A program made the translations under genes and the position numbers. The notes under the pieces are model-generated. The model was not told the DNA's origin and made no database searches. It worked only from the letters and a program-made list of their open reading frames with translations. Source: Aequorivita iocasae (lineage in GTDB: Bacteria; Bacteroidota; Bacteroidia; Flavobacteriales; Flavobacteriaceae). Taken from it: a stretch of 64,000 bases of DNA. Below, piece after piece: positions 1-15,438 of the stretch (position 1 is its first letter; every line of letters starts with the position of its first letter). Location: contig NZ_CP068439.1 of the NCBI RefSeq assembly GCF_016757735.1, forward strand, positions 1,550,001 to 1,614,000. Direction: 5' to 3'.

Positions 1-702
1 ATTTAAAAATGTATTGATGCCTGCTTCCACTGAAGGTTCGTTGTAAACACTCATTGAATATTTGCTGAAATCAGGGAACTTTTGAAGAAATTCCTTAACA
101 GGGTTCAGCCCAAGTTCTATACTATTAAAATCCGTTTCTGTATTTATGCGTAACAAATGAATTTTTGAGTCACATTTTTCTGCAATGGACAGTACTTCCT
201 TGAACGGTATGCTCACGTCTTCCTTAAAATCTGAAAGGAATACGATGTCCTTAAACGGAAACGTTACTTCATCCTCTTTTACCACAATAATTGGTGCATT
301 TGCCTTTCTTACAATTTTATCAACGTTACTGCCTATTACTTCCCTAACGAGTCCTTTGGTGCCGCTACTTCCAGTAATAATGAAATCGTGGTGAAAGTGA
401 CCGGAATGTTCTAAAATATCTTTTTGTCCTGAATCAAATTGTAGAAAAGTTCGACATTTAAGACCTTCGTGTTCTGCCTCTTTTTCCAACGCACGCAATT
501 TGGCTTTGGCAATACCAATTTGCTTTACAGTTTCGGGATAGCGCTTTTCTTTGAGTTTACTCAATTTTACCCAATCTACAGGTGTTGTCATCAAGTGTAA
601 AAAATGTATCTCTGCATCGTATAGTTTGGCCATTTTAATGCCTAAATAGGCTGCCTTTGTGCAGTTTTCAGAGAAATCGGTGGGTACAAGTATATTTTTC
701 AT
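1..702 (-). CDS. Universal stress protein with two Usp domains (partial, runs off the left edge)
   Basis: I translated 234 codons from an ATG at 700-702; the frame is still open at base 1, so the C-terminus lies outside the window. The N-terminus (MKNILVPTDFS) and the loop GSSGTKG followed by VIGSN at about residues 118-130 match the nucleotide-binding loop of UspA-family proteins. A second Usp-like domain starts at about residue 155 (PFKDIVFLSDF). Tandem-domain Usp proteins of about 280 residues are common in Bacteroidota. It lies 24 bases after ldhA in the same orientation, as the last visible gene of the long minus-strand run. Ligand and role are inferred from family only. Confidence 0.85.
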   Translation of the reverse strand, partial: MKNILVPTDFSENCTKAAYLGIKMAKLYDAEIHFLHLMTTPVDWVKLSKLKEKRYPETVKQIGIAKAKLRALEKEAEHEGLKCRTFLQFDSGQKDILEHSGHFHHDFIITGSSGTKGLVREVIGSNVDKIVRKANAPIIVVKEDEVTFPFKDIVFLSDFKEDVSIPFKEVLSIAEKCDSKIHLLRINTETDFNSIELGLNPVKEFLQKFPDFSKYSMSVYNEPSVEAGINTFLN

Positions 703-726
703 TTTTTTATGTTTTAATTATTTAAA

Positions 727-1722
727 CTAATTGACAGATATTTCATTCCCAGAAAGGATTTCTTTATCAAAGCAATCTAAATTATATATGGTGGTTTCAG
801 CAATATTGGTCAATGCTGTTTCTGTTAAAAAGGCTTGATGACTTGTTATTAAAACATTGTTAAAGGTCATTAATCGAGCAATCACATCGTCTTGCAAAAT
901 GTCATCAGAATGGTCTTCAAAAAACAATCCTTCTTCCTCTTCATAGACATCCAATCCTAAATACCCTATTTTTTTCGTCTTAAGACCTTGTATGACCGCT
1001 TTGGTATCCACCAAACCACCACGACTTGTGTTGATGAGCATTACACCGGGTTTCATAAGTGCGATATGTTTTGCATCAATCAAATGTTTTGTGTTTGGTG
1101 TTAAAGGTATATGCAGACTTATGATATCTGCCCGTTCGCAGAGTTTTTTGCAATCAGTATAATTGACGTTATATGTATTGACAAGCCTTTTATCGATAGT
1201 CATATCGTGGGCCAGAATTTTGCAGCCAAAACCGTGAAGTATTTTTACCAATACAGCACCTATTTTTCCTGTTCCTATGACACCGACAGTTTTTCCGTTT
1301 AGGTCGAAACCCGTAAGTCCGTTTAATGAGAAGTTGTGTTCGCGCACCCTGTTGTTTGCCTTAATCAGTTTGCGGTTTAATGCAAGTATCAAAGCCATTG
1401 TGTGTTCTGCAATGGCATAAGGTGAATAGGCAGGAACACGGGCTACCTTCATATCCAATTCAGCTACTTTTATTAAATCAACGTGATTGAAACCTGCAGA
1501 ACGCAGAGCAATATTTTTTACGCCTAACGTGCTTAATTTTTCAAGAACTTTTGCCGAAGCCTCATCACCTGTAAAGAGACTTACCGTTTTGGAACCTGTT
1601 GCGAGAATAGCTGTTTCTTCCGTCAAACGACTCTCAAGCAGTTTTAATTGATGCTTGCCATCATTCGCTTTTAACAGATAGGGTTCTTCAAACTTATGTG
1701 TGCTAAATATGGTTGTTTTCAT
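727..1722 (-). CDS. ldhA: D-lactate dehydrogenase (D-2-hydroxyacid dehydrogenase family)
   Basis: This is predicted to be a cytoplasmic NAD-dependent enzyme interconverting pyruvate and D-lactate, which would regenerate NAD+. Its 331 residues match the usual LdhA length. The NAD-binding motif GTGKIG lies at about residues 150-155. The catalytic set of the family is visible: Arg234 in NTSRGGLVD, a Glu near 264 in the acidic stretch after LGLDVY, and His295 in TSHQAFLT, the last being typical of LdhA rather than other 2-hydroxyacid dehydrogenases. It is 10 bases downstream of the MgtC/DUF4010 gene and belongs to the same transcriptional run as phosphofructokinase, aldolase and GAPDH, so a role in redox balance for that cassette is reasonable but inferred. 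Confidence 0.88.
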   Translation of the reverse strand: MKTTIFSTHKFEEPYLLKANDGKHQLKLLESRLTEETAILATGSKTVSLFTGDEASAKVLEKLSTLGVKNIALRSAGFNHVDLIKVAELDMKVARVPAYSPYAIAEHTMALILALNRKLIKANNRVREHNFSLNGLTGFDLNGKTVGVIGTGKIGAVLVKILHGFGCKILAHDMTIDKRLVNTYNVNYTDCKKLCERADIISLHIPLTPNTKHLIDAKHIALMKPGVMLINTSRGGLVDTKAVIQGLKTKKIGYLGLDVYEEEEGLFFEDHSDDILQDDVIARLMTFNNVLITSHQAFLTETALTNIAETTIYNLDCFDKEILSGNEISVN

Positions 1723-1732
1723 TTCACTTTTT

Positions 1733-3001
1733 TTAATTTCCTAACTGTATTAAAATATATGTTATGCCCACTATGACAACAGTTCCAAAAATCATAAGTA
1801 CAAGTTTTCCTGTTTTTTTAGAACCTTTAAAGTAGGTTATGCCCAACTTTACAATCATATTGCTTATGGTTGCTGTTATGATGACATTGGTTGCCAGTGC
1901 AAGTTTTTCTTCCAAAGACCCAAATTTTGCCATACTGATAGTAATGGCATCTGTATCTGCCAATCCTGCAATTAGGGCTGAATAGTACAAACCGCTTTCG
2001 CCAAAAAATTGATTTCCATAAAAAACCGCAAACAGGATGACCACATAAATACCACCAAACCCAAGGGCGTTCCAAATATTGAGTGGATTACCAAGATTGA
2101 TGTCTGTCTTTGGGACATCTGTATTCTTTTTGATGAATAAAAGCGCACTTATCAGGCAGATAAGGGTAAGAATAGTAAATGGGACGACTAAATAAGAAAG
2201 TATGGCACTATTGAAAATATATGCCAGAATCGCAAGTCTGGGAAACATTATGGCAGAAGCTATAATGATACCAGCGGCATATTCTTTTGAAAGTTCTGGC
2301 GATTCCTTACTTCGGGAAGCATATATCCAAGCTACAGCGGTACTTGAAATCAATCCGCCTAAAATTGCCGTGAGCAGAATACCACGTTTAGAACCTACAT
2401 ATTTTACAAGAAAGTAGCCGATGAAATTTAAGAAGGAAACAATAACAACAATAGAGCCGATTTCAAAAGGATTTAACAAACCTTCTGGTCCATAATTTTC
2501 TTTGGGAAGGAATGGTAATATCAACAACGCTATGATAGAAAATTTAATAAAAGCAAAAAGCTCTGCTGAAGTAATATTCTTTATGAAAGAACGAAAGGTA
2601 GTTTTAAGCGACAATAAAGTAACGACCACTACTGCGGTGGCAACTGCTTCCTTGTGCAAATGATTGGCAACCATAACACCCAAAATCAACGTAGCGAATA
2701 ATGCCATATTAGTGGTTATCCCTGTCATTACGTGTTTTTGTACCATAGACAGATGGCTCAAGGACAAAAACAAAAGAAATGCTCCTGCAATGATAATGAC
2801 CAACCAAGGTGTATAAGCTGTGGAAAGGTTGCCTAATATAAAACCAATAATGGCGACAATCGGGAAGGTTCTTATGCCTGCAAAACCTTGTTCTTCCTTC
2901 AGTTTATCGTATTCACGTTCCAGTCCCAGAATAAGGCCAATGCCTAGACTTATGAGTAATCCGAGGATAAATGGGTTGATATTTTTAAAGGCTTCAATCA
3001 T
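1733..3001 (-). CDS. MgtC/SapB and DUF4010 family membrane protein
   Basis: This is a 422-residue polytopic inner-membrane protein with roughly 11-12 hydrophobic segments. The N-terminus has the MgtC/SapB-type signature, LGLERE followed by GIRTFP at about residues 25-47. The C-terminal half matches the DUF4010 extension, including a polar AGLADTDAIT segment at about residue 345. MgtC proteins are linked to magnesium homeostasis and F-ATPase control in pathogens, but for the longer DUF4010 group the function is not established. It sits 3 bases after pfkA and 10 bases before ldhA, so it is co-transcribed with glycolytic genes. I assign the family with confidence, not the substrate. Confidence 0.82.
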   Translation of the reverse strand: MIEAFKNINPFILGLLISLGIGLILGLEREYDKLKEEQGFAGIRTFPIVAIIGFILGNLSTAYTPWLVIIIAGAFLLFLSLSHLSMVQKHVMTGITTNMALFATLILGVMVANHLHKEAVATAVVVVTLLSLKTTFRSFIKNITSAELFAFIKFSIIALLILPFLPKENYGPEGLLNPFEIGSIVVIVSFLNFIGYFLVKYVGSKRGILLTAILGGLISSTAVAWIYASRSKESPELSKEYAAGIIIASAIMFPRLAILAYIFNSAILSYLVVPFTILTLICLISALLFIKKNTDVPKTDINLGNPLNIWNALGFGGIYVVILFAVFYGNQFFGESGLYYSALIAGLADTDAITISMAKFGSLEEKLALATNVIITATISNMIVKLGITYFKGSKKTGKLVLMIFGTVVIVGITYILIQLGN

Positions 3002-3004
3002 TTC

Positions 3005-3979
3005 TTACTTTCCAAATAGTTCTAAAAGTTCATATAATTCATTATTTACTTGATGTTGCTTAACCACCTCTTTAAAAGAGGTTAGATGCAATTGATTGTG
3101 TGAAATTCCTACCATTACGTTCTTTTTACCTTGTAAAAGTGATTCTATAGCTGCGACACCCATTCTAATTCCCAACATTCTATCAAAAGCCGAAGGGTTG
3201 CCTCCTCGCTGCACGTGTACCAGCCTAGTTATTCGCAAATCTACATCCGAATTTATTTCCTTGATTTTTGACGCGACCAGTTCTGCGCCTAATTCATCTC
3301 CTTCCGAAACCACGACAAGAAATGCTTCTTCGTTATTGTAATTTTTGACCTTATTTAATAGATAAATAAAGTCTTTGCCGCTCTCGGGAATTAAAATGGC
3401 ATCTGCTCCTGTGGTAAGTCCTGAATGAATGGCAATGTAACCCGAATCCCTTCCCATAACTTCCACAATAAATATTCGGTTGTGAGATTCGGCAGTGTCC
3501 TTTATTTTATCGATATTCTCAATGGCTGTATTTACTGCGGAATCGAAGCCAAGAGTATAATCTGTCCCTGAAATATCGTTGTCAATAGTCCCCGGAATAC
3601 CTATAAAAGGGATGTCGCATATTTCTGAAAAAGCCAAAAGCCCCCTAAAAGTACCATCGCCACCAATGGCAATCAAAGCGTCTATTTTGTTTGCTTTTAG
3701 GGTTTGTAAGGCTTTTTTACGACCCTCTAATTCCAGAAATCGTTTGCTTCGTGCTGTTTTTAGAATAGTGCCACCTTTTTGGGTAATTTTTTTTAGTTCG
3801 TGAGATTTGAATGGTATCAAATCACCATCTATCAAACCTTCATACCCTTTTAAAAAACCACTTACTTTAATATCATTCACTTCCGCAGATTTTGCAATAG
3901 CATACAATGCAGCGTTCATTCCAGGGCTGTCGCCTCCAGAGGTAAATACACCTATATGTTTGATTTTATTAGTATTCAT
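3005..3979 (-). CDS. pfkA: ATP-dependent 6-phosphofructokinase
   Basis: Predicted to phosphorylate fructose 6-phosphate to fructose 1,6-bisphosphate in the cytoplasm. Visible motifs are the nucleotide loop GGDSPGMN at residues 15-22, GGDGTFRG at about 106-113, the catalytic loop GTIDND (Asp near 133) and MGRDSGYIA. The Gly in GGDGT and the Gly in PGTIDND are the residues usual in ATP-dependent enzymes; PPi-dependent enzymes carry Asp and Lys there. The length of 324 matches bacterial PfkA. The start overlaps the end of the hydrolase gene by 11 bases, which indicates translational coupling. Because a flavobacterial chromosome normally carries its own pfkA, this is probably a second copy carried by the island. 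Confidence 0.93.
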   Translation of the reverse strand: MNTNKIKHIGVFTSGGDSPGMNAALYAIAKSAEVNDIKVSGFLKGYEGLIDGDLIPFKSHELKKITQKGGTILKTARSKRFLELEGRKKALQTLKANKIDALIAIGGDGTFRGLLAFSEICDIPFIGIPGTIDNDISGTDYTLGFDSAVNTAIENIDKIKDTAESHNRIFIVEVMGRDSGYIAIHSGLTTGADAILIPESGKDFIYLLNKVKNYNNEEAFLVVVSEGDELGAELVASKIKEINSDVDLRITRLVHVQRGGNPSAFDRMLGIRMGVAAIESLLQGKKNVMVGISHNQLHLTSFKEVVKQHQVNNELYELLELFGK

Positions 3980-4886
3980 TTAATATTGTTTTTTGTGATT
4001 TTTTATCTGAAACCGAAAAATCTTGGACGGTCTTCCATACAAATTCTGCTTCTTTTAGAAAGAACTGATGGTCTCCTTCAGATGAAGTAATTATTTGTGC
4101 GTTTTTAAATTCCCTCGATAATTTTAAGGCATTTTCTAAAGGTGCAGTTGTATCTTTTTCTCCGTGAATAAAAAGCACGTCTTTATCCTTAATTTTCCTT
4201 GCCATCGCATATAAATTTGTTTTTAAGATGATTCTTTTAAGAGAAAAATAGTAGCTCTGCCAATGATGTTTTTTTGCGTCTTCATAAACTTCGTCAGTAA
4301 GATTATCGGGTTTGAAAGCACGCGACATAAAAATGGGATGTATCATACAGATGTATTTCGAGAATTTGCTTGTTGAAATCCTATCCACAAAGGAATGTGT
4401 GGACATAACTTTCTTAAACTCATCTGCATCCTTGTAAACAGGTATGCTAATAAAAACGCCTGATTTGAACCAATGACGATGTTTTTCTAAAAGAGCTAAT
4501 GAAATTATCGCTCCCATAGAATGTCCACCTATTAAAGTTTTTCCATCATTGAATCCTTCCTTGTTTAAAACCAATTCAACGGCTTGCATTTGTATTGAAA
4601 GAGAATAATTGCTTCTTGGTTTTGGCGAATCACCAAAACCAAGAAGGTCTATTAGAAGTAAAGAATGTGTTTTTGAAATGCTTTCTAAATTGCGCTTCCA
4701 ATAATTCAATGACCCAGTCAATCCGTGTAGCAAAACAAGTTTGGTTTCACCTGAACCCATTATTTCATAATTCAATAGAGTTTTGTTGGCATCATAGGCT
4801 GGTTGCTTAACAATCTTATAATGCTGATATCCTGCTATAGCGATAACTGGAAGAATTAAGAATATGGATGTGAATAGTAATGTCAT
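3969..4886 (-). CDS. Alpha/beta-fold hydrolase, membrane-anchored
   Basis: I chose the ATG at 4884-4886 (305 aa); a longer reading would need a TTG at 4904. The first 20 residues form a hydrophobic segment, so the enzyme is probably anchored with its domain in the periplasm, although a non-cleaved orientation cannot be excluded. Alpha/beta hydrolase landmarks are present: oxyanion-type LLHGLTG near residue 53, nucleophile elbow GHSMG with Ser123, the acid in HGEKDTT and the His in GDHQFF near the C-terminus. The substrate is unknown. Its 3' end overlaps pfkA by 11 bases, so it belongs to the metabolic run even though it is not a glycolytic enzyme. Confidence 0.8.
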   Translation of the reverse strand: MTLLFTSIFLILPVIAIAGYQHYKIVKQPAYDANKTLLNYEIMGSGETKLVLLHGLTGSLNYWKRNLESISKTHSLLLIDLLGFGDSPKPRSNYSLSIQMQAVELVLNKEGFNDGKTLIGGHSMGAIISLALLEKHRHWFKSGVFISIPVYKDADEFKKVMSTHSFVDRISTSKFSKYICMIHPIFMSRAFKPDNLTDEVYEDAKKHHWQSYYFSLKRIILKTNLYAMARKIKDKDVLFIHGEKDTTAPLENALKLSREFKNAQIITSSEGDHQFFLKEAEFVWKTVQDFSVSDKKSQKTILNEY

Positions 4887-4929
4887 TATTAAAATATGAA
4901 TCAATTTTTAAATTTATTCCATTTGTTAA

Positions 4930-5991
4930 CTATGCAATATTGATAGTATCATCCAAATAGACATTCTGCACGGCTTTGATTAACGCAACTCCTTCACCAA
5001 AAGGTTTTTGAAATGCTTTCCGTCCCATTATCAAACCAGAACCTCCCGCTCTTTTATTGATGACAGCTGTCGTAACTGCTTCAACCAAATCTGACTCACC
5101 TTTTGAGCCACCACCTGAATTTATCAAACCTATTTTTCCCATATAGCAATTGGCTACTTGCAATCTGCATAGGTCAATAGGATGGTCTGTTGTAAGTGTT
5201 TCATACATTTTATCATCATATTTACCAAAACCTATCTCTTTGAAACCAAAGTTGTTTGTAGGTAATTTTTGCTTAATAATATCTGCCTGAATGGTTACTC
5301 CTAAATGATTGGCTTGTCCCGTAACATCGGCAGCTGCGTGGTAATCTTCTTTTTCGGTTTTAAAAGCTTCATTGCGCAGATAGCACCATAAAATGGTAGC
5401 CATTCCTAAATTATGGGCTTCTTCAAAAGCTTCAGCTATTTCTTTTAGCTGTCTGTTACTTTCCTCTGAACCAAAATAGATAGTTGCACCCACGGCAATT
5501 GCTCCCATATCCCAAGCCGATTTTACCTTGCCAAAGAGCGTTTGGTCATATTTATTGGGATAGGTAAGAAGTTCATTGTGGTTGATTTTTACAATGAATG
5601 GTATTTTGTGCGCGTATTTTCGAGCGTTCAGCCCTAAAACACCAAAGGTGGACGCTACACCATTGCAACCAGCCTCAATGGCGAGTTTTATGATATTCTC
5701 TGGGTCAAAATAATCTGGATTTTTATAAAAAGAAAAAGCTGCACTATGCTCGATGCCTTGGTCAACAGGCAGAATGCTCAAGTAGCCTGTTCCCCCAAGA
5801 TTTCCGTGGTTGTACAACTGTGCGAGGCTTCGCAGTACTTGTGGATTTCTGTTACTATTTAGAAATACTTTTTCAAGACTGTTCTTGCTTGGGGTTAGAA
5901 GTTCATCCTTCGTGATTTTTTCACAAACGTGTTCTAAATAGAAAGATGACTTCTTTCCTAATAGTTCTATGATATTTTTTTCTGTTTTCAT
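4930..5991 (-). CDS. fbaB: Class I fructose-bisphosphate aldolase (DhnA/FbaB type)
   Basis: Predicted to cleave fructose 1,6-bisphosphate to two triose phosphates through a Schiff-base lysine, without a metal ion. The 353-residue sequence carries typical stretches of the bacterial/archaeal class I family: [10 protein letters not shown] near residue 78, [28 protein letters not shown] in mid-protein, and [12 protein letters not shown] plus [15 protein letters not shown] near the C-terminus. I did not assign the Schiff-base Lys exactly. It follows the archaeal-type gap gene by 11 bases. The metal independence matters here: the usual bacterial class II aldolase is a divalent-metal enzyme, and this copy lies in a copper-resistance operon. 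Confidence 0.93.
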
Positions 5992-6002
5992 TTTATGTTG
6001 AA

Positions 6003-7016
6003 TTAATGAATTCCTAAACTGTCATTGGTTTTGACAATGGATTTTTCTGCACCTGTTTCAATTCCCGTAAGTGCCCTAATGGCATCAATCGTTTCAGGGA
6101 TTACAATAGCTTGATTATCTACTACATAAGCGTAAAAAAGCTCGTCTCCAACAACCTTCAGCATATCTTCCCAAAGCGCAACTTCATACATATCGCCCCA
6201 AGGTCTTCCCATATCCAAAAACATTTCCTTAATAGTGTTGTTAGAAACCAAGCCTTGGTCATAGCGTATCAGCTTAATTCTGCTGGATGTTTTAAAGGCA
6301 TTAAGCACTTCTTCTTTCGTGGCTTGCTTCTTTAACTTCACGTTCCAATAGTGCATATGGCTCAATGTCTCTGGAACTTTTACTGCGGATGTGATAACAT
6401 CGAGTTCGGGGTCGACACTTTTGGCATCAGGACCTTGATGGCTCGGAATATCTTTTTCTGGAACCATTGTGTTCATAATTCCGCCCAAATGACTTTCCCA
6501 AGGGTCTGTTGCTCTTCTTAAGAGTGTTCCTCTAGCATAATCCAATAAACCAGCTCTTTTTAGAGCGGTCAATGTTCTTAAGATAGAGGTGGTATTGCAG
6601 GAAACTACACGTGTTGCATTTAGATTTAACGCAGATTTATAATTGTTTTCCGCACTAAAGGAATGACCCGTGGTCTCGTGCTTTTCCCCTCCCTGTAAGA
6701 TAAATTTTATCCTAATTTCTTTATAAACTTTCACGTTCTGTGCTGCAATTTTTTTTGGGGTACAGTCCACAACTAAATCTACCTCTTTCAAAAGGTCTTG
6801 CATATTTCCTTTGACATCGATGCCAGCATTTGCCATTGTAACAGCTGCTTCTTGAGTGGCTGCATAGATATCGTACTCTTTTCTCACCGCATTTTGAATG
6901 CGCCAATCACTAATGATATCACACACACCCGAAAGTTTCATATCATCTTGAAGATTGACGGCATCAGCTACTCTTTTTCCGATGACACCATATCCTATAA
7001 CTGCTATATTTTTCAT
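6003..7016 (-). CDS. Type II (archaeal-type) glyceraldehyde-3-phosphate dehydrogenase
   Basis: Predicted to oxidise glyceraldehyde 3-phosphate to 1,3-bisphosphoglycerate with NAD(P). The 337-residue protein starts with a Rossmann motif, [12 protein letters not shown] (residues 6-17), and contains the type II active site SCNTTSILR with the catalytic Cys at residue 140, followed by RRATDP. These are features of the archaeal GAPDH family, which is only distantly related to the ordinary bacterial GapA (SCTTN). The type is unusual in Bacteroidota and suggests transfer. It sits between the APC permease and the class I aldolase with short gaps (14 and 11 bases). Archaeal enzymes are often NADP-accepting; the cofactor preference here is not determined. 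Confidence 0.9.
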
Positions 7017-7030
7017 ATAAATTGAATTTA

Positions 7031-8389
7031 TTAATTATGTTTTGTTTTTATATTACTTGTTACTTCCATTCCCATCGGCATATTTCCCTCATCATCTGTA
7101 TGTGAAATCATAAAAAGCCGTTCCGCAACAATGATTAGAATAATCCCAATTGCCGCTACGATAAGCACCAATGGGTCGTTCAGATATTTTATATAAAGAA
7201 ATGCTGAAAGCACCGCAACATCCATCACAATGGCTATTAATGGAATGATTGGCAGAAAATCCACTTCTTTTTTTAGGTGGCGAAAAAGTCCCCAATGGAT
7301 AGCAATATCCATAATGAGGTAAAAAATAGCCCCAATGGAAGCAATCCTTGTTAAATCAAACAACACGGTCAGTAAAATAGCCAGTGAAACCGTGAATATG
7401 AGGGCAGGGTTTTTAAGATTCCCCATTCTTTTTAGGGACGGCACTTGCTTCATATTGCTCAACATCGCCAACAAGCGTGAGGCCGAAAACACACTTGCTA
7501 TAACACCAGAAAAGGTTGCTATAATGGCTATTGCTATGGTAATCCAAGAACCCCATTCCCCAAAAATGGGTTGTGCCGCCGCTGCCAAGGCGTAATCCTT
7601 TGCTTCGATTATTTCTGGGATAGTTAAACCTCCAGCAACAGCCAGTGCCAAGGCTACATAAATAATCGTGCAAATAAGAATGGAAATAATAATAGAACGT
7701 CCAAGGTTCTTATGTGGATTTTTAATATCACCTCCCTGATTTGTAATAGTAGTGAATCCCTTATAGGCAAGGATTGCCAACGCCAATGCAGCAATAAAAG
7801 CGAACCCTTGTGGCAACGTTTCCGTATTTCTTGGAATATAATTTCCTGTAATATCTGCGAATCCGGAAGCTATAAGTCCCGCAATGGCGAGCAATGCAAT
7901 ACCTACAACTTTGATAATTGCTGTAAAGGTGGCTGTTGCGCCAATAACTTTGTTTCCTAAAATATTGATGATGTAAGCTGTTACCAATAGCAGAATCCCG
8001 AGAATGGATGCGTAACCAGCCAAACTTTCTGGGAACAGCCGAAGCGTATATGCTCCAAAAGTGCCCGCCACCAAGCTTTCTGAAACCACCATTGAGACAT
8101 ACATCAACAAAGAAAAGACCCCTGTCGTAGTGCCAGGGCCATAGGATTTGTTCAAGAATTTAACAACGCCTCCAGAAGATGGAAAAGCATTTGAAAACTT
8201 CACATAGGAATATGAACTGAAACCAACCACAATGGCACCAGCTATAAAAGCAACCGGAAATAAATCACCTACCAATTCAGCTATTTGTCCCATAAGGACA
8301 AATATTCCAGCACCAATCATAACCCCAGTACCGAGAGATATGGAACCTATTAGAGAAAGCTTATTATTTTTAACTGTGGTGTCTTTCAT
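7031..8389 (-). CDS. APC-superfamily amino acid permease
   Basis: This is a 452-residue inner-membrane protein with about 12 predicted transmembrane segments. The N-terminal GSISLGTGVMIGAGIFVLMG (residues 15-34) is the glycine-rich unwound helix 1 that binds substrate in APC transporters, and FSSYSYVKFSNAFPSSGG matches the following helix 2 region. The substrate cannot be read from the sequence; amino acids, polyamines or organic cations are possible. It is 7 bases from the NDH-2 gene and 14 bases from the archaeal-type gap gene, so it is co-transcribed with energy genes. No extra soluble domain is present: the C-terminus ends shortly after the last hydrophobic segment. Confidence 0.85.
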   Translation of the reverse strand: MKDTTVKNNKLSLIGSISLGTGVMIGAGIFVLMGQIAELVGDLFPVAFIAGAIVVGFSSYSYVKFSNAFPSSGGVVKFLNKSYGPGTTTGVFSLLMYVSMVVSESLVAGTFGAYTLRLFPESLAGYASILGILLLVTAYIINILGNKVIGATATFTAIIKVVGIALLAIAGLIASGFADITGNYIPRNTETLPQGFAFIAALALAILAYKGFTTITNQGGDIKNPHKNLGRSIIISILICTIIYVALALAVAGGLTIPEIIEAKDYALAAAAQPIFGEWGSWITIAIAIIATFSGVIASVFSASRLLAMLSNMKQVPSLKRMGNLKNPALIFTVSLAILLTVLFDLTRIASIGAIFYLIMDIAIHWGLFRHLKKEVDFLPIIPLIAIVMDVAVLSAFLYIKYLNDPLVLIVAAIGIILIIVAERLFMISHTDDEGNMPMGMEVTSNIKTKHN

Positions 8390-8396
8390 TATTATA

Positions 8397-9752
8397 TTAT
8401 TTCTTCGGATTATTCACAGAAGATTTAGGTTTAAAATTTCTAATAATCAGGCGGTTGCTCTTTTCGTAAGTGAAATAGCTTACCGCCCAATTAAAACCAA
8501 CCATCAATCTATTTCTAAATCCGCTTATTGACATCAAATGCACAATAGACCATAACAACCAAGCGAAATAACCTGCAAACTTGAATTTACCCAAATCAGC
8601 TACTGCTTTTCGTTTACCAACGGTCGCCAACGAACCTTTATCTTTATATTCGAAAGGCTTTACGGCTTCATCATTAATAATTTTCAATAATGAATTACCC
8701 AAATATTTCCCTTGTTGAATAGCCGTCTGTGCTACTTGTGGATGTCCTTTTGGCGTTTCATTTGTAATTATAGCCGCTATATCGCCTATGGCAAAAATGT
8801 TTTCGTAACCTTCTACCATTAAAAATGAGCCCGTTCTTATACGGTTGCCTTTTACCACGTGTTTTTCATCGATACCTTTTGGGAACTGTCCTTTTACACC
8901 TGCTGTCCAGATTAGGTTTTTGGCAAAAATGGTTTTCCCACTTTTGGTTGTGACTATTGACCCGTCATAATCGCTTACCGATTCATTGAATAGTACCTTT
9001 ACATCCAAGTCCTTCAAATATTTCAGGGTTTTTGTAGAGGCTTTTTCAGACATTGTACTTAACAATTCATCAATGGCCTCAATCAAATAAATGTTCATTA
9101 TAGAAGAAGGGTACTCTGGATAATCCTTCGGTAGAATGTATTTACAGAATTCTGCCAAAGCTCCTGCCATTTCTACCCCAGCAGGACCACCACCAACGAT
9201 AACGAAATTTGTCAGGGCATCACGTTCATCATCATCACAGGTTATGGCTGCCTGTTCCAGATTTTGCAACATCAGATGGCGGATGTTTAGGGAATCACGA
9301 ATATCCTTCATCCCCAAGCTGTTTTGCTCAACGTTTTCCATACCAAAGAAATTGGTAGTTGTTCCGGTTGCCAAAACCAAATAATCATATTCAACTGTTC
9401 CTTTATCTGTGACAATTATATTTGATGAGGCTTGAATTTCTTCCACTTCTGCCAAACGGAATACCACGTTTTTATATCCATTAAATTGTTTTCTGAAAGG
9501 AAAAACAATGCTGTCCGGTTCCAGGGCACTTGTAGCTACTTGATAAAGCAAAGGCTGAAACTGATGGAAATTATTTTTGTCAATAAGGATAACTTGAATT
9601 TCTTTGTGTTTCAGTTTTTCTGTCAATGCCAAACCTGCAAACCCACCGCCAATGATAACTACACGCGGTAAGTCAGAATCTGGAAGGCATATTGTCTCTG
9701 TTACCTTACAAGCAGATTCTTCTGCATTATTATTTGAGTAATTGACGTTCAT
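8397..9752 (-). CDS. ndh: Type II NADH:quinone oxidoreductase (NDH-2)
   Basis: Predicted to pass electrons from NADH to quinone at the membrane using FAD only, with no iron-sulfur cluster and no proton pumping. Two dinucleotide motifs are visible: GGGFAG at about residues 35-40 (FAD) and GGGPAG at about 187-192 (NADH). FHQFQPLLYQVATSALEPD near residue 62 is typical of NDH-2. The C-terminus (about 400-451) contains aromatic, amphipathic stretches such as FAWLLWSIVHLM that usually dock the enzyme to the membrane. It lies between a universal stress protein and the permease. An alternate dehydrogenase lacking Fe-S centres fits a copper-stress cassette, since copper damages Fe-S clusters; this link is inferred. 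Confidence 0.88.
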   Translation of the reverse strand: MNVNYSNNNAEESACKVTETICLPDSDLPRVVIIGGGFAGLALTEKLKHKEIQVILIDKNNFHQFQPLLYQVATSALEPDSIVFPFRKQFNGYKNVVFRLAEVEEIQASSNIIVTDKGTVEYDYLVLATGTTTNFFGMENVEQNSLGMKDIRDSLNIRHLMLQNLEQAAITCDDDERDALTNFVIVGGGPAGVEMAGALAEFCKYILPKDYPEYPSSIMNIYLIEAIDELLSTMSEKASTKTLKYLKDLDVKVLFNESVSDYDGSIVTTKSGKTIFAKNLIWTAGVKGQFPKGIDEKHVVKGNRIRTGSFLMVEGYENIFAIGDIAAIITNETPKGHPQVAQTAIQQGKYLGNSLLKIINDEAVKPFEYKDKGSLATVGKRKAVADLGKFKFAGYFAWLLWSIVHLMSISGFRNRLMVGFNWAVSYFTYEKSNRLIIRNFKPKSSVNNPKK

Positions 9753-9785
9753 ATTTGGTTTTTATATCATTGGTGTTGGCCATAG

Positions 9786-10247
9786 TTACTTTGAGTCCTT
9801 GTCTTTTACAATCATTACTGAACATTTGGCGTGTGTTGCTAAATACTGTGAAACAGAACCCAATAAAAGACGTGAAAATGCTCCTTGCCCTTGAGAGCCG
9901 ACTACGATTAAATCTGCATCAAACGACTCTGCTTTTTCTAAAATCTCCTTTTTTGGAAGCCCACTGACCACGCTTGTTGTTATTGCAATCGAACTATTTT
10001 TTTCAGATATGATTATTACAGCATCGGAAACAATTTTTTCTCCCAATTTTTCTGCATTGGCTATAAATTCTCGATAATAGACGTCAAGAGTGTCCGTTGT
10101 TGAAATGAGCTCTGGCGTTGACATCGCTGGATGCTCATAAACGTTTATTATACTAATTTCACTATCCTGTGGTAATGAAAATTTTGCAAGTTCCTTAACA
10201 GCCACTTTACTAAACTCTGAACCGTCTATTGCTAATACTATCTTCAT
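9786..10247 (-). CDS. Universal stress protein, single domain
   Basis: This 153-residue protein starts with MKIVLAIDGSEFS and ends with the nucleotide-binding pattern GSQGQGAFSRLLLGSVSQYL (about residues 118-137), which corresponds to the G-x2-G-x9-G-S/T ATP loop of UspA-family proteins. The length is typical for a single Usp domain. It is the second Usp gene in the run; the other, two-domain copy lies at the left edge. It is followed after 33 bases by NDH-2 and preceded by the lycopene-cyclase-like gene after 16 bases. The usual roles are in starvation, oxidative or respiratory stress, with no specific ligand predictable. Confidence 0.9.
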   Translation of the reverse strand: MKIVLAIDGSEFSKVAVKELAKFSLPQDSEISIINVYEHPAMSTPELISTTDTLDVYYREFIANAEKLGEKIVSDAVIIISEKNSSIAITTSVVSGLPKKEILEKAESFDADLIVVGSQGQGAFSRLLLGSVSQYLATHAKCSVMIVKDKDSK

Positions 10248-10263
10248 TTTATTTAGTTTTAAA

Positions 10264-10971
10264 TTAATTACGAGCTTTATTTAATTTTATAAGTTTTCGC
10301 CAATACAGATGTTCGTATAATCCAGACCAGTACATCCCAAAAGTAAAGGCGAATAATAATTCTTCAATCGGAATGCCCAAGACAAGAATATGGGTCAGGT
10401 TGTTCAGATTCCAGTACAACTCCACATATTGGGGATAGAACGGAAGTATGCTTCCGAAATAAATGAAGTACAATACCGTAAACAAAATTCCCCCAACCCA
10501 TATCTTTCCTTTTAAATCTGGGCGACAGTAGAGTGTTGCCAATCCACCAATAAAGAGAGCGATAATCCCACAATAGATATGGTTAAGCGATGTAAACAGA
10601 GCCAGTAAAATGAATATGACCACTGGCGTAAAGAGTATATAATTATGTAGCCGATGCCTTTTGTGGTTTCTCTCGATATGTGGTATTTCGGAAAGGCCTC
10701 GCTTAAAAATCAGGTTATAAACAACTGTACCTATTCCGCCTATGGCGAAAGAAAATATTAAACTTTCAATGTCAAAGCCTGTTTTTTCGGCCAATTCAAA
10801 TAATGATGGTGGCATCCAATATTCTGGCACAAACAAGGGCTCTGTTAAACCAAACGGCATAGTGATTAGGCTCATTTGAAGCATTGCTTTTCTATTTTCT
10901 TTTTTGGACAAGTAGATAACTGCCCAAAGAGCTAAAATGATAAGCGACCATATAAACCAGACATTCTGCAT
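10264..10971 (-). CDS. Lycopene-cyclase-domain-like membrane protein
   Basis: A 235-residue protein with about seven hydrophobic segments. PFGLTEPLFVPEYWMPPS at about residues 40-57 and IPIEELLFAFTFGMYW near residue 200 resemble the repeated Pro/Glu motifs of the small CrtYc/CrtYd/CarR lycopene cyclase family, which hold acidic residues in the membrane. I see no carotenoid biosynthesis gene nearby, so a true cyclase role is doubtful. The setting, between small copper-type membrane proteins (DUF5676, SHOCT) and a universal stress protein, suggests that this fold has been adopted for a membrane or metal function. Family assignment is moderately secure; function is open. Confidence 0.6.
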   Translation of the reverse strand: MQNVWFIWSLIILALWAVIYLSKKENRKAMLQMSLITMPFGLTEPLFVPEYWMPPSLFELAEKTGFDIESLIFSFAIGGIGTVVYNLIFKRGLSEIPHIERNHKRHRLHNYILFTPVVIFILLALFTSLNHIYCGIIALFIGGLATLYCRPDLKGKIWVGGILFTVLYFIYFGSILPFYPQYVELYWNLNNLTHILVLGIPIEELLFAFTFGMYWSGLYEHLYWRKLIKLNKARN

Positions 10972-10989
10972 AATCCTAAAATGGTTTTC

Positions 10990-11268
10990 CTATTTTTTAA
11001 CTTTTATTTGTGCGTTATAAAATGCTCCAATACAAGCCCCTATTAACCACCAAAGAATAAAAGTTTGTATTATTCCCATTAACACTTCTAAAGGTGGTAC
11101 ATCCATTCTAATGATACTGGTAGTATCCAAGCCGTGCAAAAGGCTGTTGAAAAAGGTAATTGAACCTTCTTGTCCTGCTGTTAACATTACAATCATACAG
11201 CCCAAATAAATTAAGGTTCCTGTTAGACCGAAAGCAAAACCGAGTTTTTTTATGTTTAATCGATACAT
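10990..11268 (-). CDS. DUF5676-like small membrane protein
   Basis: This is a 92-residue protein with two hydrophobic segments (about 10-30 and 63-85) joined by a loop. The C-terminal segment includes WWLIGACIGAFYN and is followed by a short basic tail. The layout matches a small family often found beside copper-handling genes in Bacteroidota and Proteobacteria. No metal-binding cluster is present beyond isolated Met and Cys residues within the membrane segments. It is 17 bases downstream of a SHOCT gene and 18 bases upstream of the lycopene-cyclase-like gene. Function is unknown. Confidence 0.65.
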   Translation of the reverse strand: MYRLNIKKLGFAFGLTGTLIYLGCMIVMLTAGQEGSITFFNSLLHGLDTTSIIRMDVPPLEVLMGIIQTFILWWLIGACIGAFYNAQIKVKK

Positions 11269-11285
11269 AGTTTTATAATTTTGAG

Positions 11286-11492
11286 TTAGTTTTCTGATTT
11301 TAGAATCTTTTTAGATTCTTCAAATTCTTCCTTGGATAATTCGCCTTTTGCAAAGCGTTTTTTAAGAATATCCAGTGGGCTGTCCTTCTTTGTTTTTTGA
11401 TAAGGTATGTCTGTAGGAATGAAAAATATCCAGGCCAAGAAAAAAAACCAGATAATCCACCATATAAAATGCATACCGCCGTAGTGATTCAT
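11286..11492 (-). CDS. SHOCT-domain small membrane protein (copy 1 of a tandem pair)
   Basis: A 68-residue protein with one strongly hydrophobic, Trp-rich segment at residues 8-25 (FIWWIIWFFFLAWIFF). A short basic linker follows, then a C-terminal SHOCT-type helix pair, DILKKRFAKGELSKEEFEE (residues 42-60). SHOCT is a short C-terminal module often seen in small membrane or oligomeric proteins. It is nearly the same protein as its upstream neighbour at 11504-11740, from which it is separated by 11 bases, so the pair arose by tandem duplication. The function of this family is not established. Confidence 0.75.
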   Translation of the reverse strand: MNHYGGMHFIWWIIWFFFLAWIFFIPTDIPYQKTKKDSPLDILKKRFAKGELSKEEFEESKKILKSEN

Positions 11493-11503
11493 AATATTAG
11501 TTT

Positions 11504-11740
11504 TTAGGAATTAAGGTTTTTAGTAAAATCCGCGTTTAAAATCTTTTTAGATTCTTCATAATCTTCCTTGGATATTTCGCCTTTTGCAAAGCGATTTTTT
11601 AGAATATCAAGTGGGCTTTCTTTCTTTGATTTTTGATATGGGATATCCGCTGGGATAAAGAAGATCCAGGCAATAAATATGACCCATATAATCCACCATA
11701 TAAGGTGCATTCCTCCAAAACTTCCATCGTAATAGTGCAT
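11504..11740 (-). CDS. SHOCT-domain small membrane protein (copy 2 of a tandem pair)
   Basis: A 78-residue paralogue of the next gene, with the same layout: a His/Tyr-containing N-terminus (MHYYDGSFGGMH), one Trp-rich membrane segment (LIWWIIWVIFIAWIFF), and a SHOCT helix pair beginning DILKNRFAKGEISKEDYEE. It is 10 residues longer than the other copy because of a slightly longer start and tail. Differences between the copies are conservative, which suggests both are maintained. It lies 21 bases after the HMA chaperone gene. Confidence 0.75.
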   Translation of the reverse strand: MHYYDGSFGGMHLIWWIIWVIFIAWIFFIPADIPYQKSKKESPLDILKNRFAKGEISKEDYEESKKILNADFTKNLNS

Positions 11741-11761
11741 AATTTTTAATTTTAGATGTTA

Positions 11762-11977
11762 TTAATTTATTTCTGTGATTGTGTATCCATTGAGCGCATC
11801 GAGTTGCTTTTGTAGTTCGGCAACTGAAAGAGTTTCATTCATAGTGATTACAGTAGCTCCTTTTGGTGCCAGAAAAATCTCTGCTTTTTCAATGTTGGGA
11901 TGTTCTTCCAATGTCTTCTTGACTCTTGCAACACATCCACCACAACTGATTCCGTTTATTTGAAATTTTTGTTTCAT
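11762..11977 (-). CDS. HMA-domain copper chaperone (CopZ-like)
   Basis: A 71-residue single-domain heavy-metal-associated protein, predicted to bind Cu(I) and hand it to an ATPase or efflux pump in the cytoplasm. The metal loop is GISCGGCVARVKKTL with the two binding cysteines at residues 11 and 14, followed by the beta-alpha-beta-beta-alpha-beta spacing typical of the fold (ends NGYTITEI). There is no signal peptide. It lies 12 bases after the DUF2933 gene and 21 bases before the SHOCT pair. A second HMA chaperone of different sequence is at 42422-42634 next to the Cu ATPase. Confidence 0.9.
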   Translation of the reverse strand: MKQKFQINGISCGGCVARVKKTLEEHPNIEKAEIFLAPKGATVITMNETLSVAELQKQLDALNGYTITEIN

Positions 11978-11989
11978 AATATTTAGCTT

Positions 11990-12259
11990 TTAGTGATGCT
12001 GATGGCCTTTGTGTTCATCTTTGGATTCAGCCGTAGAGTTTTCTTCTCTATTTTGGGATTCACTTTGTTTATGCTGTGAATGGTTATGACCACCGTGTCC
12101 GTGCGAGCCGTGGGGCATAAATAGGTGGCAGGCAAACATAAAAATGATGAAAATAAATAGTGATGAACCACCTCCTATACCAAATGAGGGCGCTAAAAAG
12201 ATGAACAGTAGTGGTAGCCCACAACCGATGACCATCCATATCCAGTGATTATTTTTCAT
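11990..12259 (-). CDS. DUF2933-like membrane protein with a His-rich tail
   Basis: An 89-residue protein with two hydrophobic segments (about residues 5-24 and 31-50), then a tail very rich in His and Gly (HGSHGHGGHNHSQH at about 51-64) and a final GHQHH. The N-terminal layout (MKNNHWIWMVIGCGLPLL) matches the DUF2933 family that accompanies copper-resistance genes. The His-rich tail is likely to bind Cu, Zn or Ni, probably on the periplasmic face, but topology is not determined. It sits between the Met-rich lipoprotein (18 bases) and the HMA chaperone (12 bases). Confidence 0.72.
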   Translation of the reverse strand: MKNNHWIWMVIGCGLPLLFIFLAPSFGIGGGSSLFIFIIFMFACHLFMPHGSHGHGGHNHSQHKQSESQNREENSTAESKDEHKGHQHH

Positions 12260-12277
12260 TGTTTTTGATTTTATAAA

Positions 12278-12751
12278 TTAGTGATGCTCGGTATGGTCAT
12301 CCTTGGTGGAAGAATCCATATTGTCCATCTTCATACCCTGCATATCCATTCCTTTTTCGCCCATCATCTTTGAGCAGGATTCCATACAGTCCTCGCTCAT
12401 CATTCCTTTTTCGTGCATCATTTTCATCATCGTTCCCATCATTTTTCCGTCATTCATCATTTGGTTCATCATTGAGTGCATCATTGGTTTGTTGCCCATC
12501 ATATTGTTCATCATCGTACTGTCTTTCATCATCATTTGCATTCCTTCACCTTGCATCATTTGCATTGCGTGGTCGCTATTGTGCATCTCCTCCATAAACT
12601 CGGTCATATAATCGTGATTTTTGGTAATTGCATCATATACTTCTGTACGGTTTTCCGGATTTTGCATTAATGCTTGCAAGTCTGCTTCCTGTTTGCAACT
12701 GTTTAAGCTTAAAAGCCCAATTGCAGATAAAATAATTACTAGTGTTTTCAT
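12278..12751 (-). CDS. Met- and His-rich lipoprotein, probable copper binder
   Basis: A 157-residue lipoprotein. The first 19 residues end in a lipobox with Cys19 (LLSLNSC), so the mature protein is probably lipid-anchored. From about residue 60 on it is extraordinarily rich in Met (MQMMQ, MQMMMKDSTMMNNMM and similar) and ends in Asp/His residues (DDHTEHH). Met clusters of this type bind Cu(I) or Ag(I) in the periplasm, as in CusF- and CopC-like proteins, although no defined domain is visible here. Long antisense reading frames across this gene arise from its repetitive ATG codons and are not genes. Confidence 0.82.
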   Translation of the reverse strand: MKTLVIILSAIGLLSLNSCKQEADLQALMQNPENRTEVYDAITKNHDYMTEFMEEMHNSDHAMQMMQGEGMQMMMKDSTMMNNMMGNKPMMHSMMNQMMNDGKMMGTMMKMMHEKGMMSEDCMESCSKMMGEKGMDMQGMKMDNMDSSTKDDHTEHH

Positions 12752-12781
12752 TTTGATTTGTTTTTAAATTATTAATAAGAT

Positions 12782-13384
12782 TTATTCTATTTTCTTTAGT
12801 GACCATTTCTTGTTTTCGTCTCCAACCATAACTAAACTTCTAGAGATTAGCTTGGATGTAATTGCAGGTGGATTTTTATCCTTCTTGCCTTTAGGCGAGA
12901 CGTGAATGGCCAATTGAGTTAAATGCTCTATTGTTTTTCCTTCTTTATCTATGACAACCTCAAAATAATGATAGCTTACCACGTCTTTTTTGAATATGTC
13001 ATTATAGCCAATGATTTCTTTTTCAACTTTTAAAGCCAATGCTTTATCGCCTTCAAAGTTGGTTGCATTCAAAAATTGTGGTTGTATGATAGGATTTCCA
13101 GTTCTATCAATATATCCGTAATAAAGCACATCACTTTTTTGATGTGCAATCAGACATCTTTCGTTACTAAATATGGGATAGCTGGCATCATCTGTTTTGG
13201 TTAAAACCAAATCGTCCCTAAAATCCACCACAATTTTGGCTTCTTGATTTATAAATGCCCATTTCTCTCCTTTTTTTATGGCAGCAAGTCCCTCGTGAAA
13301 AGGTGAAATGTAATCGATATTCTCGATGGTCTGTGCAAATCCCAATAGTGGAAGAAGCAATAATGTGATAACTATTTTTTTCAT
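12782..13384 (-). CDS. Secreted WG-repeat protein
   Basis: A 200-residue protein with a clear signal peptide (MKKIVITLLLLPLLGFAQT, cleavage after about residue 18). It has at least two WG-type repeats: one around KKGEKWAFINQEAKIVVDF (about 37-55) and one around YYGYIDRTGNPIIQPQF (about 87-103). WG/KWG repeats form beta-type modules of unknown binding function and are common in Bacteroidota. It is the second gene of the minus-strand run, 71 bases after the HMA-AraC regulator, which is the largest gap in that run. A small near-palindrome lies in the gap at 13419-13429. No metal ligands stand out. Confidence 0.75.
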   Translation of the reverse strand: MKKIVITLLLLPLLGFAQTIENIDYISPFHEGLAAIKKGEKWAFINQEAKIVVDFRDDLVLTKTDDASYPIFSNERCLIAHQKSDVLYYGYIDRTGNPIIQPQFLNATNFEGDKALALKVEKEIIGYNDIFKKDVVSYHYFEVVIDKEGKTIEHLTQLAIHVSPKGKKDKNPPAITSKLISRSLVMVGDENKKWSLKKIE

Positions 13385-13418
13385 TTTGATATGTTTTTAA
13401 TTTATTAAATGTAGTATT

Positions 13419-13429
13419 GGCCAATGGCC
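13419..13429. promoter_or_regulatory. Short inverted repeat upstream of the WG-repeat gene
   Basis: GGCCA and TGGCC are separated by one base, 35 bases upstream of the WG-repeat gene start and just after the regulator gene start-to-end block. It is the most GC-rich stretch in an otherwise AT-rich gap. It could be an operator or a processing or termination element between the regulator and the rest of the run. With only 5-bp arms, the evidence is weak. Confidence 0.25.
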
Positions 13430-13455
13430 TTCATCTGCATAACTTTCGTTGATAT

Positions 13456-14037
13456 TTATATAATTTCATCATAAAAGTTTCGTTTCCAATTTTCGGTATT
13501 TTTATAGTCAGTCATACTCATTCCAATCACTTCTTTGAATTGTCGGGACAAATGGTTGACACTGCTATAATCCAATAAGTATCCTATTTCTGAAAAGGAA
13601 TGTTGTTTAAGTTGGATGAGTTCTTTAACTTTCTCTATCTTCAATTTGATAAAGTACTTTTCGATGGTTGTATGTTCATTGGTAGAAAATAATTTGCTCA
13701 AGGTCTTATAATCCTTATGAAGATTTGATGCCAATAGTTCAGATGTTTTTACCTTAATATGTAAGGGTAGCTCTTGCAATTGTTCAATAAGAATAATCTT
13801 GATTCTTTCTGTAAGCATTACGTCTTCGTTCTGAACGATTTCAAAATCATTGGAGTGAAGTACGGTTGTTACAGCATTGACAATTTCATTGTTGGTTTTT
13901 TTTGGTGCTTCTACCAACAACCTTCCCAATTCCAAAGAAAGTACTGTTACTCCAAGTTCCTGTAGTTCCTGCTTAATTACTTTTAAGCAGCGATTACAGA
14001 CCATATTCTTAATCCAAAATTCTTTTGGTTTGCTCAT
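13456..14037 (-). CDS. HMA-like/AraC-type transcriptional regulator (copy 1)
   Basis: A 193-residue cytoplasmic regulator. Residues 1-70 resemble a heavy-metal-associated fold with a CxxC loop (NMVCNRCLKVIKQEL, Cys14 and Cys17). Residues 120-190 are an AraC-family helix-turn-helix pair (SEIGYLLDYSSVNHLSRQFK, then GMSMTDYK). The combination suggests direct sensing of a soft metal such as Cu(I) by the N-terminal Cys pair, with the AraC domain acting on DNA. This proposal is inferred from domain content. It is the first gene of the 19-gene minus-strand run. A paralogue with the same plan lies at 29766-30332 in front of the second efflux module. Confidence 0.8.
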   Translation of the reverse strand: MSKPKEFWIKNMVCNRCLKVIKQELQELGVTVLSLELGRLLVEAPKKTNNEIVNAVTTVLHSNDFEIVQNEDVMLTERIKIILIEQLQELPLHIKVKTSELLASNLHKDYKTLSKLFSTNEHTTIEKYFIKLKIEKVKELIQLKQHSFSEIGYLLDYSSVNHLSRQFKEVIGMSMTDYKNTENWKRNFYDEII

Positions 14038-14089
14038 AGTGTTTAATGTATTGCCATCAGGTTTTAGCCCAATAGTTTGAATTATCTGT

Positions 14090-14106
14090 AGCTAACAAGG
14101 TTAGCT
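14090..14106. promoter_or_regulatory. Perfect inverted repeat upstream of the HMA-AraC regulator
   Basis: AGCTAAC and GTTAGCT flank a 3-base loop, 53 bases upstream of the regulator start on the minus strand and about 120 bases after the end of the preceding small gene. A 7-bp perfect arm pair here is a reasonable candidate for an operator or a small hairpin. I cannot separate the two possibilities from sequence. Confidence 0.35.
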
Positions 14107-14228
14107 CTGTAAGGTTTTATTGAATGATGTACGGTGTAGTTTAAAACAGGGTACAACAAATGTTAGCCAGAAGTGAAACTGTGGCTATAGAGACAATGCA
14201 GATTAAATTTAACCTGCGAAGTAGAAAA

Positions 14229-15359: not shown

Positions 15360-15381
15360 TTTTTAAGCAATAGACCCACTA

Positions 15382-15438
15382 ATCCTATGGAGTTCATCCA
15401 TCAGGATAATTTGTTGTATTCGGTATTTTCTTAATACC
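15382..15438 (+). promoter_or_regulatory. Two hairpins in the leader between the small Cys-rich gene and cusA
   Basis: The first hairpin (15382-15407) pairs ATCCT-ATGGA with TCCAT-C-AGGAT around a 5-base loop. The second (15422-15438) pairs GGTATT with AATACC. Both lie in the 102-base gap before the CusA start. Neither is followed by a clear U-run, so they may tune mRNA stability or expression ratio rather than end transcription. The second efflux module has two hairpins in the equivalent place. Confidence 0.4.

Follow-up and report, generated by a model that had tools for sequence, protein, structure and literature searches.

A spare set of metabolic enzymes within a copper-gene run of Aequorivita iocasae: a candidate case of copper resistance by target replacement

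Why should a run of copper genes contain enzymes of central metabolism? The locus that raises this question lies in a 64,000-nucleotide stretch of Aequorivita iocasae DNA (hereafter the window; bases 1550001-1614000 of contig NZ_CP068439.1, a single-contig 3.35 Mb genome), whose nearest named loci are from Flavobacteriaceae, including Aequorivita. On the minus strand, a run of 18 open reading frames (ORFs) descends from 14037 to 727. A preliminary description had counted 19 same-strand genes with gaps of 71 bases or less; on recomputation the largest gap is indeed 71 bases, but the count is 18. Family models or domains uphold the identities proposed there for phosphofructokinase (PFK), class I fructose-bisphosphate aldolase (FBA), archaeal-type (type II) glyceraldehyde-3-phosphate dehydrogenase (GAPDH) and the NADH dehydrogenase NDH-2, as well as the presence of a copper chaperone (HMA, PF00403) and a Met-rich gene. 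The supposed HMA-AraC regulator has the AraC domain (PF12833) and a CxxC-type motif but gives no HMA match in Pfam at E 0.001, and the name D-lactate dehydrogenase proved too specific for a D-2-hydroxyacid dehydrogenase that falls under the cut-off of every NCBIfam model listed (196 bits against a cut-off of 356 for NF006374).

A directional run and its conservation

The observation is sound and larger than first reported. The run passes the window edge by about 9 kb, with ten further same-strand ORFs at gaps of at most 42 bases in the DNA to the left (locus L201, whose coordinates are separate from those of the window). The whole directional run thus comprises 28 ORFs over about 23 kb, with copper genes near both ends, and the notion of one gene run framed by copper genes holds; an HMA protein and a copper ATPase (TIGR01511) provide chaperone and exporter genes within it. 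After position 727 the order is a two-domain universal stress protein (Usp), an ATP-cone protein, an 84-aa ORF, a beta-CASP protein, a thymidine/AMP-phosphorylase-family enzyme, phosphoribosyl pyrophosphate (PRPP) synthetase (Prs), two small ORFs, the copper ATPase and, last, an MFS gene. The phosphorylase-family enzyme scores 688 bits against NF003338 (cut-off 434) and stays under the cut-off of the AMP phosphorylase model (489 against 535). The copper ATPase has a CPH motif and an N-terminus rich in His and Met, and is presumably of the CopB type. In our judgement the balance is even on whether this is a mobile operon under copper control in which target replacement accounts for part of the copper resistance; a spare, copper-tolerant metabolism would be the best reading of its function.

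Relatives were taken from a GAPDH scan of genome contigs, in which the best 80 of at least 573 were kept; common descent or transfer links them, so they do not count as independent. Window genes were located in these loci by tblastn, and many loci end before the distal genes. A copper-side gene lies upstream of GAPDH on the same strand in 76/80. Three of the four exceptions (L081, L083 and L095) are on contigs that start less than 5 kb from the GAPDH gene; the fourth, L118, is from the gammaproteobacterium Marinicella pacifica, where homologues of the phosphorylase, Prs and the copper ATPase come after a GAPDH of 85% identity. The aldolase is present in 78 of the 80 relatives, NDH-2 in 69, Usp in 66, PFK in 47, the 2-hydroxyacid dehydrogenase in 41 and a same-strand PRPP synthetase homologue in 18. 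In none of the 80 loci was a block gene found on the strand opposite GAPDH; CusA, which lies outside the block, is divergent in 15. Because the gene order recurs in relatives and the strand of the block is constant across the 80 loci, a chance arrangement is ruled out. The block is also found in Membranihabitans (L084), and since this genus belongs to another class, its presence there points to transfer; the cluster seems to be passed among marine bacteria.

Gap figures in the relatives use mechanical ORFs and speak of spacing only: the largest same-strand gap from the DUF5676 gene to the aldolase gene is at most 100 bases in 54/70 loci and at most 200 in 64/70, and from the AraC gene to the dehydrogenase gene it is at most 250 bases in 31/33. 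Judged by this spacing, the metabolic genes do not form a separate transcript in most relatives, as would have counted against the preliminary description, and the gene order is kept. Inserts in the relatives include an SDF symporter (44/80; best model GltP, under its cut-off), NhaA (21/80), a GH130 phosphorylase with a glycosyltransferase (10/80), glycogen phosphorylase (8/80) and amylase (8/80), and acetate-kinase-like matches occur in several. At L065:15329-19102, a cupin, a GH130 phosphorylase and a glycosyltransferase are inserted within the block; possibly, the GH130 insert reflects a mannan-like reserve that supplies the spare glycolysis. Two contigs of one metagenome-assembled genome (UBA5544; L039 and L087) carry a block copy each, and the genes of L039 are 100% identical to the window genes that it holds.

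Copper genes beside type II GAPDH

Among 395 sampled Bacteroidota genomes, 17 exceeded the type II GAPDH cut-off, including that of the window itself. The 17 loci tested exclude the latter and comprise the other 16 together with L135, a fragmentary match under the cut-off; type I GAPDH is also present in 17/17 of the tested genomes. The window and plasmid loci carrying type II GAPDH served to build the copper panel, and MerR-type matches were left out of the counts. At least one copper marker was found near type II GAPDH in 14/17 loci (of 14.5-20 kb), compared with 1/17 loci of type I GAPDH from these genomes and 2/20 control stretches (control loci of 11.4-20 kb, the stretches hand-placed at round coordinates rather than at random; Fisher p = 1.3e-5 and 1.1e-5, respectively). 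At least two markers were found in 9/17 type II loci, 0/17 type I loci and 0/20 controls. In the two Flavobacteriaceae loci (L125 and L128), which share DNA with L080 and L103 of the 80 relatives, the marker matches are partly the same block; without both, the figures are 12/15 for type II against 1/15 for type I. The copper link is well supported by position. Some type II loci (L120-L122) adjoin a mercuric-reductase-like gene or MerR-type regulators, and the link may be to thiol-binding metals rather than to copper alone.

Type II GAPDH relatives are also carried on 37 plasmid records, of which 14 contexts were opened, one of them unannotated. Copper or heavy-metal genes lay within 10 kb in 10/13 annotated contexts and in 4/13 control stretches (Fisher p = 0.047), in a manual count of the terms copper, heavy metal, multicopper and DUF2933 in product names, with one same-plasmid control stretch per annotated context. 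These islands of other phyla are similar but differently assembled: PRPP synthetase occurs with a phosphoketolase-family enzyme in Paracoccus and Acidovorax (XFP confirmed) and, by product name, in Agrobacterium; further contexts hold acetate kinase (Acidovorax), aldolase, GH57, GlgP and PFK (Meiothermus), aldolase and phosphoketolase (Corynebacterium), and enolase and PEP synthase (Croceicoccus). Genes for L,D-transpeptidases lie near GAPDH in Paracoccus and elsewhere on two such plasmids, and lipoprotein-maturation genes are found on some plasmids with such islands. Copper is reported to inhibit L,D-transpeptidases and lipoprotein acylation in the relevant part of one account (PMC6593411), and we note as a lead that these genes, too, might be replacements of copper targets. 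Class I FBA alone was rejected as a copper marker: its 56 matching plasmid records are led by Rahnella (12), Escherichia (7) and Klebsiella (5), and those listed are mostly annotated fbaB.

Spare enzymes and the readings of their function

PFK, aldolase, GAPDH, NDH-2 and PRPP synthetase of the run are all second copies in this genome. The other PFK, to which the island enzyme is 47% identical, adjoins GapA on the chromosome, and the two NDH-2 enzymes share 54% identity. Two further Gp_dh_N genes and one class II aldolase gene lie elsewhere; the only other PF01791 match is a 225-aa frame, and the island class I aldolase is the sole one of its class. The chromosomal PRPP synthetase scores higher than the island Prs, which is 22% identical to it, and neither the island GAPDH nor the island aldolase gives a meaningful alignment with its chromosomal counterpart. 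By these alignments, GAPDH and Prs, for which a copper lesion has been published, and the aldolase come in a different form from the chromosomal copies. Class I aldolases are metal-independent, and an enzyme of this metal-free class does stand beside a single chromosomal class II enzyme. In contrast, NDH-2 had been proposed as a stand-in without Fe-S clusters for complex I, and this role was rejected, as the complex I subunit PF00346 was searched for in this genome and not found; Na+-NQR and the second NDH-2 are present, so the island NDH-2 is not the sole Fe-S-free route. The spare glycolytic and respiratory route of the preliminary description is borne out as to second copies of glycolytic enzymes, but the set reaches beyond glycolysis and respiration: it includes PRPP synthetase and the phosphorylase-family enzyme, and relatives widen it further with the dicarboxylate/amino-acid symporter, phosphorylases and acetate-kinase-like genes.

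Could these forms be less sensitive to copper? Cys140 of the type II GAPDH, noted at the outset, was confirmed by alignment, and it is invariant across seven aligned sequences together with His220, which we take to be the catalytic His. The type II enzyme thus keeps its catalytic Cys, yet a second Cys at +4 was found in 0/110 readings, compared with 19/19 readings of type I. The motifs, read by pattern (V-S/A-C for type II; for type I an SCTTN-like pattern that admits C or A at +4), are VSCNTT followed by S, A or G in the 110 readings from 111 loci, and ASCTTNC in the 19 type I readings, two of which are of the same gene; sequences without the pattern go unread, as does 1/111 type II loci. The absence of the +4 Cys, a feature of this GAPDH type as a whole, is on sequence grounds a plausible reason for weaker Cu(I) binding and lower copper sensitivity. 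The island GAPDH has three Cys and no CxxxC, compared with four in the chromosomal enzyme, and PFK has one compared with three.

Published accounts, in the parts relevant here, report that GapA of S. aureus is bound and inhibited by Cu(I) (PMC6350627) and that purified Prs has no detectable activity left at 5 uM Cu(I) (PMC10249872); the GAPDH and PRPP synthetase of the run are second copies of enzymes published as copper targets in S. aureus. Copper also hits Fe-S enzymes that make glutamate and branched-chain amino acids, and these amino acids bypass the lesion, according to the relevant part of a review (PMC10903455); such a bypass would fit the APC and SDF transporters. If resistance indeed involves target replacement, the regulator would sense copper and activate transcription of the run at a promoter close to the dyad described below, and the chaperones and copper ATPase would lower free copper. 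Once Cu(I) inhibits GapA and Prs or damages Fe-S and Zn enzymes, the spare GAPDH, class I aldolase, PFK, NDH-2 and PRPP synthetase would keep ATP, precursors and PRPP flowing, while the 2-hydroxyacid dehydrogenase would recycle NAD+ and the permease would bring in amino acids.

Resistance by target replacement, in which a mobile second copy takes over from a poisoned housekeeping enzyme, is established for antibiotics (sul, dfr and ileS2). By analogy, we propose that a metal, which as a poison hits many targets, would here call for the joint replacement of several enzymes. Among copper systems, CMGI-30b of Cupriavidus metallidurans is likewise a mobile cop/cus/pco-type cluster with copper ATPases, Cus efflux, a multicopper oxidase, chaperones and a regulator, as far as the relevant part of its account goes (PMC2864759); it differs from the present run, where genes of central metabolism form a block among the copper genes, and the same part treats the GAPDH and aldolase genes of C. 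metallidurans with the carbon metabolism of the chromosome, outside the metal islands. Closer still is an integrative and conjugative element (ICE) of P. aeruginosa, ICE13534, whose 18-gene cluster, found in a copper transcriptome, includes copA, is upregulated by copper and has a GAPDH gene as its last member (PMC13393423). It thus shares with this run a GAPDH gene in a mobile copper cluster, there copper-induced and of a type that the section describing the cluster leaves unstated; that section gives the GAPDH no role and does not mention aldolase, PFK or PRPP synthetase, and reports the terminal gene as changed in one strain and not in another with an insertion before the gene. Among the papers listed from an open-access library, judged by titles and abstract openings, none dealt with copper islands that carry type II GAPDH or with island replacement of copper targets, the nearest being PMC13393423.

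Copper genes at both ends of the run, spare copies that differ from the chromosomal ones, the enrichment of type II GAPDH at copper loci and the synteny in relatives all speak for target replacement. Several observations weigh against it. Cys residues are more numerous in three of the five island enzymes than in their chromosomal partners (NDH-2, 4 against 0; Prs, 6 against 4; FBA, 5 against 2), so that a general rule of Cys-poor island enzymes was rejected, and a second NDH-2 without any Cys is already in the genome. Copper MICs (minimal inhibitory concentrations) were unchanged in P. putida that received the ICEs, according to the relevant part of PMC13393423. Three of the 17 type II loci (L119, L121 and L123) have no copper marker; in an additional Pfam examination, not applied to the controls, L119 showed ArsP and DUF5676 genes, L121 an HMA-flavoprotein resembling mercuric reductase (L121:14542-16191), and L123, which is cut by the contig end, no metal gene among the nine ORFs seen or scanned. 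Plasmid contexts with arginine deiminase (Roseovarius) or pyruvate:ferredoxin oxidoreductase, moreover, fit general energy stress.

These last observations lead to the main rival, a general low-energy or stress survival module, useful whenever respiration fails and merely carried beside metal genes, which would provide substrate-level ATP and use of reserves through glycolysis, glycan phosphorolysis, acetate kinase, arginine deiminase and Usp. Its case is strengthened by the Usp, glycogen phosphorylase, amylase, GH130 and acetate-kinase-like genes of the relatives, by the two plasmid contexts just named, in which those genes adjoin type II GAPDH, and by L119, where matches to type II GAPDH, PfkB and GlgP occur without a panel copper marker. 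However, the run lies on one strand between copper genes at both ends, the enrichment is specific to copper loci, and a spare PRPP synthetase makes no ATP; we therefore think this explanation unlikely, if still to be reckoned with. Metabolic supply, in which enzymes of no special tolerance would supply efflux and thiol repair with more NAD(P)H, ATP and precursors, agrees with ATP-driven export in the same run and with the use of NADP as well as NAD by archaeal type II GAPDHs, but leaves unexplained why GAPDH and aldolase differ in class from the chromosomal ones, and appears improbable. That the genes are passive luggage, assorted pieces picked up by metal islands and kept by chance, might explain why island contents differ between phyla; given an order conserved in many genera, the recurrence of like functions in other phyla and the enrichment over controls, we consider it very improbable. 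Finally, gapdh-arsJ pairs are a known case of a GAPDH recruited to a metal-resistance cluster, where it makes an exported arseno-compound, and three features recall such a pair here, namely the metal genes next to GAPDH, the terminal MFS gene and an ArsP-like permease (window 25170-26393); yet known arsJ partners are type I GAPDHs, aldolase, PFK and PRPP synthetase would go unexplained, and the 15 NCBIfam matches of the MFS protein are all Tet-type or multidrug models with no ArsJ model among them, so that an arsenate role was rejected and is scarcely credible.

Beyond this locus, a cross-phylum pool of mobile genes may replace the intracellular victims of copper, and perhaps of mercury: type II GAPDH, PRPP synthetase, class I aldolase, phosphoketolase and acetate-kinase bypasses, and plasmid L,D-transpeptidases and lipoprotein-maturation enzymes. 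Type II GAPDH would then be chiefly a metal-resistance enzyme in bacteria, and target replacement would join efflux and sequestration; we put this joint claim forward tentatively, as somewhat less probable than not. If true, copper resistance would gain a further principle, the swapping of poisoned enzymes; the gene content of metal islands would become a readable list of a metal's real targets in the cell; type II GAPDH in bacteria would acquire a role; and the island and chromosomal enzymes of one genome would offer a paired test of which copper targets matter in vivo.

Regulator, flanking DNA and further features

Control by copper would depend on the AraC-type regulator (Table 1), in which the motif M-V/A-C-x-x-C is kept in 54/58 orthologues. 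A dyad precedes its gene; of the 53 relatives whose loci reach far enough upstream, 30 carry a relaxed form of it 99-212 bases ahead of the regulator, and 23, including L040, which is among the closest, lack it at that place. With one mismatch the dyad has seven sites in the genome, compared with 11 for a reversed control pattern, and the motif alone is not significant; its support comes from positional conservation and not from rarity. We infer that the regulator senses copper and binds at the dyad. Elsewhere in the listed loci, the relaxed dyad was found in two loci only (L076:18315 and L118:16048); each time it lies between the matches to PRPP synthetase and to the copper ATPase, and neither locus gave a regulator match. 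Consensus scans of positions 1-15500 gave 60 promoter-like sites (57.1 expected) and 23 terminator-like sites (10.4 expected), the strongest of the latter within coding sequence, and were uninformative as a guide to operon ends.

Table 1. Features of the run; L201 coordinates refer to the DNA left of the window
Feature	Coordinates	Strand	Basis or remark
Operator-like dyad TAGCCA-N12-TGGCTA, upstream of regulator gene	14164..14187		sole exact match in genome
AraC-type regulator, N-terminal MxCxxC motif (presumed copper sensor)	13456..14037	-	PF12833; motif in orthologues
WG-repeat protein	12782..13384	-	PF14903
Small Met-rich protein	12278..12751	-	sequence; no Pfam match
Small His-rich membrane protein, DUF2933-like by eye	11990..12259	-	sequence; no Pfam match
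HMA copper-chaperone-like protein	11762..11977	-	PF00403
SHOCT protein	11504..11740	-	PF09851
SHOCT protein	11286..11492	-	PF09851
DUF5676 membrane protein	10990..11268	-	PF18926
Membrane protein with lycopene-cyclase domain	10264..10971	-	PF18916
Universal stress protein (Usp)	9786..10247	-	PF00582
NDH-2 type NADH dehydrogenase, genome's second copy	8397..9752	-	PF22366 (NDH2_C), PF07992 (Pyr_redox_2)
APC amino-acid permease	7031..8389	-	PF13520
Type II (archaeal-type) GAPDH	6003..7016	-	NF003251 447 bits (cut-off 185), TIGR01546 333 bits
Class I fructose-bisphosphate aldolase, FbaB type	4930..5991	-	NF006707 639 bits (cut-off 327)
Alpha/beta hydrolase	3969..4904	-	PF00561
6-phosphofructokinase, genome's second copy	3005..3979	-	NF002872 372 bits (cut-off 253)
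MgtC-DUF4010 membrane protein	1733..3001	-	PF02308, PF13194
D-2-hydroxyacid dehydrogenase (lactate not established)	727..1722	-	PF02826
Continuation of run	L201:8584-18703	-	same-strand ORFs
PRPP synthetase (ribose-phosphate diphosphokinase, Prs)	L201:12917-13810	-	NF005537 404 bits (cut-off 322)
Copper P-type ATPase	L201:9808-11958	-	TIGR01511 610 bits (cut-off 397)

The right side of the window carries CusA, a multicopper oxidase, CusB, DUF305, a second AraC, a Zn/Cd-type and a CopA-type ATPase, and an integrase (43550-44764). On the left, an ArsR-like regulator, a mercury-transport-like HMA protein and RteC-like and excisionase-like integrative-element genes were recognized by eye at L201:2700-6754. 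With such genes left of the run and an integrase on its right, the region may be one integrative element; no tRNA that could mark an attachment site was found in the window or L201. Between the divergent runs, two similar small Cys-containing proteins with signal-like N-termini face apart (14229-14651 and 14943-15359), and a Pfam search gave no match for either. The beta-CASP protein that adjoins the phosphorylase (L201:15340-16746) has as its best model one named type VII CRISPR Cas14, at 395 bits and under the cut-off of 800, and the trio of MBL-fold protein, phosphorylase and PRPP synthetase also occurs on the Paracoccus and Acidovorax plasmids.

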